Of a DNA stretch of 64,000 nt, positions 7,388 to 12,202 are shown piece after piece. The notes under the pieces were generated by a model. It ran no database searches, had not been told where the DNA came from, and saw only the letters and a list, made by a program, of their open reading frames with translations. The position numbers and the translations under genes are program-made. How positions within the stretch are numbered: the stretch's first letter is position 1; each line of letters opens with the position of its first letter. The DNA is from Bacteroidota bacterium (GTDB lineage: Bacteria; Bacteroidota; Bacteroidia; UBA7662; CANHCV01), in the NCBI GenBank assembly GCA_947459245.1, contig CANHCV010000004.1, forward strand, positions 1 through 64,000, written 5' to 3'.

Positions 7388-8580
7388 AAGTGCTTCAATT
7401 GGCTTATCGACTACCTTTTCCTCCCAAAGATGGGGGTGCGTTGGGGTTGTTGCGCATTTCAGAAGGATATTTGGAAACAGGAAATGAAGTTCACCTCCTT
7501 GCTATTCGAACGCCGAAACATTGGATATCCGACGACGAAATTCAATCCCATCTATCTCTTTATCCTGGGATTACCTGTACCGTAGTGGATGTAAATACTC
7601 GTCCAACCGTTTGGGGAGCCATTCAATCACTTTTTTCACCTTCTTCCTACCATGCTCTTCGTTTGAACGACCCTGGATTGAAGAAGGTCATTATTCAAAT
7701 TCTAACGAATCATCAATTCGATTTGATTCACTTAGATGGACCGTTTTGGTTGCCTTATTTGAATGAAATTCGAAGACTTTCCAAGGCGAGGTTGGTTTTT
7801 CGGGCGCATAACGTGGAGCATTTCATTTGGAAGCGTTTGGCGCAAGAAGCCAAGAATCCATTGAAGAAATGGTATTTGAATGGGCAATGGCCGAAAATCG
7901 CAAAAGAAGAAGCGGCAATGGCCCAACAAGTGGATTGGATTTTACCCATTTCTACCGTCGATGCCGCTTGGTTTAGTTCCTGCTCTTCCACCCCGCAACA
8001 CGTGTTGGAAGCCGGACTCCCGCTGCAGCAATACCCACAAATGATTGCTTCTCATTCCAACAAATGGTGTTTTTTAGCATCTTTGGAGTGGATGCCGAAT
8101 GTACAAGGGTTGGAGTTTTTTTTGGAAAACATTTGGCCCGCTTTGATTCAAGTTCATCCTTCATTAACGCTTTCCGTTGCGGGCCGACGAATGCCAGAGC
8201 ATTGGAAAAATCGGAATATTCCCGGGGTGAAATTCGTGGGAGAAGTGGAATCGGTGAAGGAGTATTTTTCCCAACACGGATTTTTAATCGTTCCACTTTG
8301 GTCGGGAAGTGGCGTGCGAATCAAATTGATCGAGGCATTGGCCATGGGCATGCCCTGCATCAGCACAACGGTTGGAGCCGAAGGATTGGGATTGGTTCAT
8401 GGGCAACATCTTTTGGAGGCGAATCGGGTGGAAGAGTGGTTGCAAGTTGCTCATGAAGTACTTTCAAATCCAGAAATTTCCATCTCATTATCCCAAAAAG
8501 GAAGGGATTTTGTGCTTCAACACTTCGATAACCGAGTTATCTTTGAGAAGTGGATGCAAGCATTGGATACAGCACAATAG
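7384..8580 (+). CDS. Glycosyltransferase family 4/1
   Basis: Re-started at ATG 7384 (ATGA overlap with upstream stop); 'GVRIKLIEALAMGMPCISTTVGAEGL' GT-B donor motif. Confidence 0.88.
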   Translation: MKVLQLAYRLPFPPKDGGALGLLRISEGYLETGNEVHLLAIRTPKHWISDDEIQSHLSLYPGITCTVVDVNTRPTVWGAIQSLFSPSSYHALRLNDPGLKKVIIQILTNHQFDLIHLDGPFWLPYLNEIRRLSKARLVFRAHNVEHFIWKRLAQEAKNPLKKWYLNGQWPKIAKEEAAMAQQVDWILPISTVDAAWFSSCSSTPQHVLEAGLPLQQYPQMIASHSNKWCFLASLEWMPNVQGLEFFLENIWPALIQVHPSLTLSVAGRRMPEHWKNRNIPGVKFVGEVESVKEYFSQHGFLIVPLWSGSGVRIKLIEALAMGMPCISTTVGAEGLGLVHGQHLLEANRVEEWLQVAHEVLSNPEISISLSQKGRDFVLQHFDNRVIFEKWMQALDTAQ

Positions 8581-9719
8581 AATGGATTGGAATTTTCTTG
8601 GCGATCATTCCAGTTTTTTTATTGCTTCATACCTATTTAATCTATCCGTTGTCTCAATTGCTTCAATCGAAGTCTAATCAAAGTTATTCCGAGGATTTTC
8701 AACCCCAAGCAACGGTTTTATTGGCGGTGTTTAATGAAAAAGATATCATCGAGCAAAAGATGAAATCCATGTTAACCACCCACTATCCCATGGAGCGTTT
8801 GCAGTTCATTATTGGCTCAGATTGTTCGGATGATGGTACCAATGAAATCATCGAAAGCTTTGTTCGATTGCATTCGAATATTACGTTTTTCCCTTTCCAA
8901 GAGCGAAGAGGAAAGGCCGTGGTGATGGAAGATTTGTTGCAATGGGTTAAGGGTGAAGTGATTGTGTTTACCGATGCCGATACGTTATTTCGCCCAGAAA
9001 CCATTCCCCACCTGCTCGCACCGTTTCAAGATCAAGCCGTTGGTGGGGTTCAAGGGAATTTTCATTCCATTCCTCTGGATCGTACCGAAGCGTTGCAACA
9101 GGAGAGTTTTTTCAATCGCATTGAAATGTCCATCAAAATGCGGCAAAGTAAACAAGGTACCGTTATTGGGGCCATTGGTTCCATTTTTGCCATTCGAAAA
9201 GATCTGTACGAAACAGTACCCTACGGGATTATTGTAGATGACTTCTTTTTGTTCATGACTGTTTTGAGAAAGGGGTATAAAACGGTTTTCGCCGAAAAGT
9301 CAATTTCAGATTTGTACGTTAGTGGCGACCCGATCTTGCAATTTAGGCGCAAAAAGCGCATTGGTTCGGGGAATTTTATGGCCTATTTTATTTTCCAATC
9401 GATGTCTTGGCCGTGGATGGGTAGGGTAGGCTACCACTTTTTTAGTTACAAAGTGCTGCGTTGGTATGGCCCATTTTTGATGATTTTGGCCGCTCTTGGA
9501 TTTTTCATGTTGTTCCCTTGGAGTACTGCAATGGGAATGATTGCCGTAGGATTGGTTCTGGCGTTGGATTGGTTATTCAGGAAAATTGAATTGAAAAGTG
9601 GAGTTTTTAGATATCCTGCGCATTTTTTCTGGATGAATGCCGCGATGTTTCTTGGCTTTTTTCAGTATGTTCTTCGCGGCAATTCGGCTGTTTGGAATAA
9701 TCCGAAAAAGTTGGGTTAA
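8550..9719 (+). CDS. Glycosyltransferase family 2 (membrane-associated, processive-like)
   Basis: 'ATVLLAVFNEKDIIEQKMKS', 'IIGSDCSDDGTNEI', 'VFTDADTLFRP', C-terminal TM helices. Confidence 0.88.
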   Translation: MDASIGYSTIEWIGIFLAIIPVFLLLHTYLIYPLSQLLQSKSNQSYSEDFQPQATVLLAVFNEKDIIEQKMKSMLTTHYPMERLQFIIGSDCSDDGTNEIIESFVRLHSNITFFPFQERRGKAVVMEDLLQWVKGEVIVFTDADTLFRPETIPHLLAPFQDQAVGGVQGNFHSIPLDRTEALQQESFFNRIEMSIKMRQSKQGTVIGAIGSIFAIRKDLYETVPYGIIVDDFFLFMTVLRKGYKTVFAEKSISDLYVSGDPILQFRRKKRIGSGNFMAYFIFQSMSWPWMGRVGYHFFSYKVLRWYGPFLMILAALGFFMLFPWSTAMGMIAVGLVLALDWLFRKIELKSGVFRYPAHFFWMNAAMFLGFFQYVLRGNSAVWNNPKKLG

Positions 9720-12034
9720 CGCAACGGAATGTACCTCGAGAGGATCGCATCTACCAGCTCAGCTTTCAATGGTTTGGATAAAAATCCTTTTACGTTTTTG
9801 AAAGATTTAGCTCGAACAAAGTCATTGGGATTGATGGAAGAGGTAAGAATATGAACCTGAATTTCAAGATTATTTCGTTCCATTTCCTCTAAAAATTCCC
9901 AACCGTTCATGATGGGCATGGATAAATCGAGCAGAATAAAGTCGGGCTCCATGGTTTTATTGATCAACAACTCCAAAGCACGGTGTGCTTCATTGAAATC
10001 GTGAACCACAATGTTGGAGTTTTGGTTGGAAACAACTTTGCTGTTGATCAAATTTTGAAAGGGATCATCATCGATCAACATCACGTTGAGCGATTGAGTA
10101 ATTTCGTAATTTTCGCCCACCACATCTTCAAACTCAACATCCTTCAACAATTCATTCAACTCTTTGATCACCGAATCCATTTTATCGGAAGATTTCAAAA
10201 GCGCATCCAAATACTCCCGATCCAATTTGGTGTCCCCGGAACGCAATACATTCAGGATGGACATGATGGTCGTAAGTGGACCCCTCAAATCGTGGGAATT
10301 GATGTGGGCGTATTTTCTAAGCTTGTTGTATTGGGTGACAAGAATTTCATTCAAACGTTTGATTTTCTTTTCGTTTTGAATGATTTGACTTACGTCAGTT
10401 AAGGTGCCAACAAACCCAACCGGTTGTCCAGCGAGGTCTCTTTCAACTTTCAGGTGAACCATCACTTGTCGGGTTCCTTCTTCGGTTGAAAAGGCAAGGT
10501 TATCTTCAATCACTTCGTGTTCGTCAACGCCAGAAATCAATTGTTGCCAACGTGAGAAAAAACGAATGCGATCTTTTTCATCCAAGTTTTTGGTCCAACC
10601 GAATCCTTCCGCATCCATTTTAGCAACCCCGATAATTTGTTCGCCTTGGTCGTTTAGGAAGTTGCAAAGTCCTTCAAGGTTGGTTTTGAAAATGCCAACA
10701 GGAACAACCTTGATGAGGTCATTCAGGGTTCGTTCTGCTTTAGCAATGCGTTTTTCTTGTTCAAGCTGATCGGTCACATCGGTTTCGATGGCGATGAGTT
10801 TGTGTGTTTCGGCAACGTGGTCGAAATGAAAAATTCCTTTGCAATGAATCCAACGGATTCCTTGTTGCGGATGTTCAATTCTAAATTGTTGATCGAGATC
10901 GGATTTCGTTTGAACGGAATGATAGAGGGCCTTGGTAAAGGCTGCGCGATCCTCTGAATAAATGCTTGCTAAGAAATTGGATTCAGACGGTTCTAAGGAA
11001 TCTGATAATCCGAACAATTGGTGGTGTTCGTTGGACCACCAAAAACGATTGTTTTCAAGGTCGTATTCCCAAACTCCCGATCCGGTTAGGCCGAGGGCGA
11101 GGCTCAGTTTTTGAGTGGACTGATCGGCCGTTTCCGATTTGGACTTTTCTGAAGTGATATCGGAAAATTGAACCACAATTCCTTCAAAAGAAAGGTTGCT
11201 TTTTTGAAAAATGGGGAACGTATTCACCTCAATCCAGCGGTGGTTTCCTCGAATGCTTTTGAGGTGATACGATTGCTTGATGGACTCTCCTTGCAAGGTT
11301 TGTTGAATGATGGAATCAAACATTCCATACAATTCTCCTTTCAGGTATTGGGTAATCGGTTTGTTGATTTCTAATTCTTGATCGAAAACGCGTTGGAAAA
11401 AAGGACGTGCCTTTTGGTTGTGCGCTTGAATGAATCCGTTTTGATTGATGAACAACGTTGGTTGTGGAGCAGAGTCGAAAATGGATTGAAAGATGGAATG
11501 GTCTTCTGTTTTTTGTTTCTCTGGGATCATTGCTCCGATCAAACGAACCGGTTCGTCGTACAGAAAGAGGTATTGGAAACGCAATTTCCAGGTGGACTCC
11601 TTTTTTCCTGTTAATAAGGATAGTGGGATGTTGAATGCCTCTTTTTTACCGAAGTTTTTAACGAGTTCCGTAACAATTTTGGGTCGATCTTTCGAAGAAA
11701 TCGAATTTTGAAAACTACCAAAAGTAAACGAAATGGCGTTCAACTTCGATCCAGCCATTTTTGCGAGGGAAGAATTGAACACCAACGCATTTTCATCGAA
11801 ATCGAACTCCAAGCAATAAAGCTGGGGCGAAAGCTTCGCAACATCTGCAAAGAACAGTTCTTTCTGGAATTGAAGGGAGTGGTGTTCGGAAGGGATGAGC
11901 TCGTCTTGAATATCAATTTGAACAAATCCCATGGTTTCAGAAACCGCCAAGGATAGTTCAGATAGCTTTTCTGTTTGATCGGTTATTTCGGTCAACCCCT
12001 TTAAAATCAAACTTAATCGTGGACGGTAGTTCAT
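9716..12034 (-). CDS. Multi-PAS protein with a DHp/HisKA-like H-box and C-terminal receiver domain; no visible HATPase_c
   Basis: PAS repeats; 'HINSHDLRGPLTTIMSIL' followed ~70 aa later by 'NVMLIDDDPFQNLINSK...DFILLDLSMPIMNGWEFLEEM...LSKPLKAELV'. Confidence 0.85.
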   Translation of the reverse strand: MNYRPRLSLILKGLTEITDQTEKLSELSLAVSETMGFVQIDIQDELIPSEHHSLQFQKELFFADVAKLSPQLYCLEFDFDENALVFNSSLAKMAGSKLNAISFTFGSFQNSISSKDRPKIVTELVKNFGKKEAFNIPLSLLTGKKESTWKLRFQYLFLYDEPVRLIGAMIPEKQKTEDHSIFQSIFDSAPQPTLFINQNGFIQAHNQKARPFFQRVFDQELEINKPITQYLKGELYGMFDSIIQQTLQGESIKQSYHLKSIRGNHRWIEVNTFPIFQKSNLSFEGIVVQFSDITSEKSKSETADQSTQKLSLALGLTGSGVWEYDLENNRFWWSNEHHQLFGLSDSLEPSESNFLASIYSEDRAAFTKALYHSVQTKSDLDQQFRIEHPQQGIRWIHCKGIFHFDHVAETHKLIAIETDVTDQLEQEKRIAKAERTLNDLIKVVPVGIFKTNLEGLCNFLNDQGEQIIGVAKMDAEGFGWTKNLDEKDRIRFFSRWQQLISGVDEHEVIEDNLAFSTEEGTRQVMVHLKVERDLAGQPVGFVGTLTDVSQIIQNEKKIKRLNEILVTQYNKLRKYAHINSHDLRGPLTTIMSILNVLRSGDTKLDREYLDALLKSSDKMDSVIKELNELLKDVEFEDVVGENYEITQSLNVMLIDDDPFQNLINSKVVSNQNSNIVVHDFNEAHRALELLINKTMEPDFILLDLSMPIMNGWEFLEEMERNNLEIQVHILTSSINPNDFVRAKSFKNVKGFLSKPLKAELVDAILSRYIPLR

Positions 12035-12202
12035 GCTTCTTCAAAGATATGAAAAGAATAAATCTTTCCATGTCGTTCCCAAATGTAGAAAATACTTTCG
12101 AGGAATTAGAAAGAAAACTCAAGGAGATCCTTGCCTTTTTACCCAATTTTTCAACGTTTAAAAAAGAGAGTGTGGAAAAAGTTTTTCAAATTGAGAAAAT
12201 GT

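Follow-up and report, generated by a model that had tools for sequence, protein, structure and literature searches.

A conserved PAS-DHp-REC protein of Bacteroidota without a kinase ATPase domain, and its possible role as a sensor phosphotransferase

Analysis of the window, the whole stretch of 64,000 nt at positions 1-64,000 of contig CANHCV010000004.1 (GCA_947459245.1) of a Bacteroidota bacterium (CANHCV01), a freshwater member of the Bacteroidetes, led to a gene for a 772-aa PAS-PAS-PAS-DHp-REC protein without a CA (HATPase_c) domain. The gene is located at 9716..12034 on the minus strand, as supported by its ORF, Pfam matches, orthologues and dN/dS. It runs from its start at 12034 to a stop codon at 9716-9718, while the plus-strand reading of the same interval is riddled with stops; the original prediction had the coordinates right, and the strand is minus. 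A glycosyltransferase gene (8550-9719) runs towards this gene from the other side, and the two share 4 bp at their stop codons (9716-9719); the convergent layout is also present in both sister species of the genus. Just 5' of the ATG, at 12042-12049 of the minus strand, TATCTTTG resembles the -7 promoter element of Bacteroidetes, which is TAnnTTTG. No clear -33 element was seen upstream of the gene. With TATCTTTG as a candidate promoter element, the transcript would be nearly leaderless.

Residues 1-180 (11495..12034, minus strand, like all features below) have no Pfam match. They are followed by three PAS domains, at residues 186-297 (11144..11479; Pfam PAS_4/PAS), 332-413 (10796..11041; PAS_3) and 445-550 (10385..10702; PAS_9). 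The DHp (HisKA) helical hairpin occupies residues 568-632 (10139..10333) and was recognized by Pfam (HisKA at 580-629, 35 bits against a cut-off of 26.9), by the HisKA search of its own genome and by its complete identity among orthologues. Alignment with HisKA and with homologues places the predicted phospho-acceptor, His581 (INSHDLRGPL), at codon 10292..10294. A 15-residue linker (633-647; 10094..10138), disordered in the AlphaFold model and placed where the CA domain of a kinase would start, leads to the receiver (REC) at residues 648-772 (9719..10093), which is supported by Pfam (Response_reg at 651-760, E=3e-16), a confident fold and PDB matches. The residues D655/D656/D657, D703 (the predicted phosphorylation site, codon 9926..9928) and K754 (of the SKP motif, codon 9773..9775) are all invariant in alignment A1. 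NCBIfam gave partial PAS/HK/RR matches only and the fold search receiver matches only. The order originally predicted, an H-box, then helix and linker, then a receiver, is thus borne out by the Pfam HisKA and Response_reg matches.

No HATPase_c or other ATPase model was matched in the 772-aa protein at E<=1 (Pfam), and none between residues 560 and 650, where the prediction had seen no ATPase boxes. An Hpt match was likewise absent at E<=1, so the protein does not show the monomeric HPt feature. The same scan found HATPase_c in 11 neighboring full kinases, which served as a positive control, and in 0/24 ATPase-less proteins, consisting of 10 with a fused REC (all 10 negative, the 772-aa protein included) and 14 without a fused C-terminal REC (0/14), of which 12 come from Bacteroidota loci elsewhere and two from the source genome. 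A CA domain measures about 110 residues or more. Approximately 15 residues separate the end of the DHp (near 632) from the start of the REC (near 648), and the "70 residues" initially counted after the H-box are accounted for by the remaining half of the DHp hairpin and this linker; therefore there is no space for a CA domain. In the AlphaFold model of residues 551-772, the linker comes out as disordered (model residues 82-96) between helices and a confidently modeled five-strand REC. This model, in which DHp confidence is low, contains no alpha/beta or CA-like domain between DHp and REC, which agrees with the prediction. The full-length model, built on a three-sequence alignment, reached a pLDDT of 39.

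The genus was represented by the source genome and the two other available genomes (three species). Orthologues in the two sister species are 97% and 94% identical, both are intact, and both carry the same DHp-REC junction without a CA domain, as the orthologue check set beforehand had asked. The DHp and linker show 100% protein identity across the three species. The dN/dS of the gene is 0.036 and 0.028 in the two sister-species comparisons, below that of four flanking glycosyltransferase genes (0.07-0.14), and the gene is under very strong purifying selection within the genus. Its neighbors are glycosyltransferases, an epimerase, an LptF/G permease and cell-wall genes, in an order that is syntenic in the three species. 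None of them was found near the homologues of two genomes from other families, so a role in glycan control, which had been suggested from the position of the gene, is a weak lead: the neighborhood itself is real and conserved in the genus, but it does not accompany the homologues checked elsewhere.

The direct DHp-REC junction is not confined to this genus. A class-wide search of 395 genomes (query residues 555-772, E<=1e-25) matched 18, of which 17 over both DHp and REC, and more fused members came from searches of the phylum and the order. The layout is present in at least seven Bacteroidota families, and the alignment shows the same junction in distant homologues of about 29-44% identity. 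On its well-supported branches, the REC tree requires the fused layout to have changed three times or more, and the fused L205 falls within a three-sequence branch of split members, in which DHp and REC are separate genes (support 100/82). The fusion state has therefore changed repeatedly, and DHp plus REC is a recurrent pairing. In one fused clade of family f5 a full kinase directly adjoins the fused gene in 7/7 loci examined (L148, L149, L153, L155-L158), which are probably one or two ancestral arrangements and not seven independent observations. These kinases are of the PAS-HisKA-HATPase_c type (six were covered by the Pfam scan) and lie upstream in divergent orientation, downstream in convergent orientation, or on both sides; in the other fused clade of the same family no full kinase adjoins the fused gene. 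Many Mucilaginibacter genomes (L015-L090) carry a highly conserved, apparently stand-alone single-domain REC of the same subfamily (DDDEINNFI...SSSVFSNDI).

Split members occur at 13 loci: one gene finishes with an ATPase-less DHp, and the gene that follows, usually a few bases away, encodes the matching REC. Since REC-containing queries led to these loci, the numbers of adjacent RECs carry a bias. Four of the split loci, each from a different genome (L027, L212, L216, and L217), have the order full kinase(s) - single REC - REC(-PAS)-DHp - REC. A kinase -> Asp -> His -> Asp relay would be expected to have its genes in this order. The shared layout looks like the middle step of a phosphate relay and not like a broken kinase. 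An ATPase-less DHp also closes the protein encoded at L215:9752-12697, a beta-propeller sensor (Reg_prop/Y_Y_Y) of the Bacteroidetes hybrid two-component type, and a single REC gene comes next; CA loss is therefore not confined to PAS sensors.

The residues around the His were also compared. In HisKA mutants, the acidic residue after the His is needed solely for autokinase activity and Thr/Asn at +4 solely for phosphatase activity (PMC3510030). Within the gathered loci D/E/N occupies +1 in 36/36 full kinases vs. 12/40 ATPase-less DHps, and T/N occupies +4 in 4/36 vs. 0/40, although these sequences are related and the counts are hence not phylogenetically independent. The His is kept in 40/42 ATPase-less DHps, with Arg at +3 in 40/40 of those that have it. 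This pattern fits a loss of both kinase and phosphatase chemistry with the His retained for phosphotransfer. The 772-aa protein has Gly585 at +4 and an autokinase-type Asp at +1, so the argument from relaxation holds for the family and not for this protein. In its closest relative outside the genus (L094/L146, genome G130, contig C38; 44% identity over DHp-REC) the His is replaced by Thr (INSTDLRSPL) with the REC intact, and L108 has Ser at this position with intact REC catalytic residues; the His is therefore not a requirement in all members. Genome G130 also holds two further fused paralogues with the His.

With regard to possible partners, the above-cut-off matches in the source genome number 15 for HATPase_c and 11 for HisKA, the latter including the 772-aa gene and two other ATPase-less genes. 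No partner kinase was found near the 772-aa gene in the 64-kb window, and the own-genome HATPase_c search gave no match on its contig (C4). The DHp is only 22-30% identical to those of the kinases of its own genome, and no partner was singled out. One of the two other ATPase-less genes (L227:7849-9312, contig C20) encodes TPR repeats, an apparent transmembrane segment and a C-terminal DHp (SHRVRGPLSTIMGL) with nothing beyond, 38% identical to the DHp of the 772-aa protein. The other (L228:565-1188, contig C85) encodes a 207-aa PAS-DHp protein without a CA domain, and its start and the stop of a same-strand SMC-like gene overlap. No REC gene is adjacent to either of them.

Taken together, these data suggest that the 772-aa protein is a cytoplasmic sensor phosphotransferase, whose ancestor would be a histidine kinase that lost its ATPase and received a REC in its place. 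By its sequence, it cannot make a phosphoryl group itself because the ATP-binding domain is absent. The DHp hairpins most likely dimerize into a four-helix bundle, and His581 and Asp703 would exchange a phosphoryl group made elsewhere, in the direction kinase -> Asp -> His -> Asp, with the donor kinase presumably encoded elsewhere in the source genome. The REC is attached at the end of the second DHp helix that carries the CA domain in a kinase, and from known DHp geometry the short linker would let the REC dock at His581. The PAS domains may gate this transfer, and the output must pass via other proteins, because the protein has no effector domain. We hold the chances to be evenly balanced that the protein is a PAS-sensing, ATPase-free phosphotransferase with a Spo0B/ChpT-like role and a tethered receiver in such a relay. 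The original prediction of a PAS-gated phosphotransfer or scaffold module without a CA domain is supported, since neither a HATPase_c match nor a CA-bearing close homologue was found. Among its options the evidence favors phosphotransfer between receivers, and it speaks less for a pseudo-kinase phosphorylated in trans, as +1 is relaxed in 28/40 ATPase-less DHps.

The main competitor of phosphotransfer is a scaffold or allosteric role, where the DHp would only dimerize and carry the PAS signal to the REC, a separate kinase would phosphorylate the Asp directly, and the His would go unused. We consider it unlikely, though a serious contender. It is retained because Thr replaces the His in L094/L146, the nearest relative beyond the genus; this replacement, together with the Ser of L108, both beside intact REC catalytic residues, and the relaxed +1 and +4 positions are what it would lead one to expect, and the pseudo-kinases DivL and ChrS, in which the His is not needed, are precedents (PMC9491836). 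However, a His that goes unused accords poorly with its retention in 40 of 42 divergent ATPase-less DHps, with a DHp that does not differ among the three species of the genus, and with the relay-like gene order of the split loci. Rather improbable, in our estimation, is a heterodimer in which the DHp pairs with its counterpart in a full kinase and receives phosphate on His581, in trans, from the CA domain of that kinase, for onward transfer to the tethered REC. FasC remains functional after removal of its HATPase domain, probably as a FasBC heterodimer (PMC12675982), RetS-GacS heterodimers are a further precedent (PMC12189002), the 772-aa protein keeps the Asp at +1 as the substrate of a trans-acting kinase would, and in family f5 the fused gene has full kinases beside it. 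Nevertheless, relaxation of +1 in 28 of the 40 ATPase-less DHps is unexpected if a CA domain still phosphorylated them, and the low identity to own-genome kinase DHps does not point to such a pairing.

A role as a phosphate sink or phosphatase for another response regulator appears very unlikely. In principle, a regulator can lose its phosphate to an ATPase-less DHp-REC protein, as has been reported for RetS acting on GacS (PMC12189002), but the Thr/Asn needed at +4 for phosphatase activity is absent in the 772-aa protein, which has Gly585, and in all 40 ATPase-less DHps. As for gene decay or an artefact, in which deletion or misassembly would have stripped a kinase of its CA domain, the missing domain is what such an event would leave behind, yet the junction is the same in three species, dN/dS is lower than that of the flanking genes, and distant homologues are many, so this explanation is next to negligible. 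Local deletion, pseudogene formation and misassembly are ruled out by the orthologues and dN/dS.

Returning to phosphotransfer, a broader and more tentative proposal, to which we assign somewhat less than an even chance, is that ATPase-free sensor phosphotransferases are widespread and recurrently evolved in Bacteroidota, their DHp working only between receivers, often fused to the one it serves and gated by PAS sensors of the same protein, and adding a second sensory input in the middle of a relay. If true, a fully ATPase-less, REC-bearing family under strong selection would mean that the DHp alone is a portable phosphotransfer module, and that a sensor can be placed mid-relay. Censuses of signaling proteins can easily mistake such genes for broken or hybrid kinases, and the split operons are ready-made four-protein sets.

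Comparison with known systems places the 772-aa protein beside several groups. Hybrid histidine kinases such as CckA (PAS-DHp-CA-REC) have the same PAS-DHp-...-REC order in one chain, but in the 772-aa protein the CA is missing, and therefore no autokinase activity is expected. Among the features of histidine kinases it has the DHp His and the Asp, acidic pair and Lys of the REC; the N/G1/F/G2 boxes of the CA are absent, so it is not a histidine kinase by membership. With Gly585 at +4, it also does not carry the H-E/D-x-x-T/N motif of bifunctional HisKA phosphatases. FasC/FasB, RetS/GacS, and the ChrS pseudokinase are likewise DHp proteins able to act without their own CA, but they are full-length or laboratory-evolved/truncated kinases, and none is a natural DHp fused directly to a REC. 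The single-domain receivers of Bacteroidota in PDB 3ilh (Cytophaga) and 4xlt are sequence relatives of this REC, although the solved chains have no fused DHp. Relays alternating DHp and receiver domains have been treated (PMC9981736), and no description of the ATPase-less HisKA-REC architecture in Bacteroidetes was found in titles and abstracts of the open-licence literature. The closest functional parallels would be Spo0B (Bacillus), ChpT (Caulobacter), and PhyT (Sphingomonas), which are derived from kinases and use a DHp-type His between two receivers without ATP. The 772-aa protein may shuttle phosphate between two receivers in the same way, as the gene order of its split homologues suggests. 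It shares with pseudo-kinase phosphotransferases a DHp hairpin with a conserved His and no working kinase domain, but it has a REC where these have a degenerate CA-like C-terminal domain. ChpT keeps such a domain, with an atypical Bergerat fold (PMC3433190), and PhyT keeps a degenerated catalytic domain (PMC5898713), whereas the 772-aa protein has no CA at all, a REC fused in its place and several PAS sensors in front.
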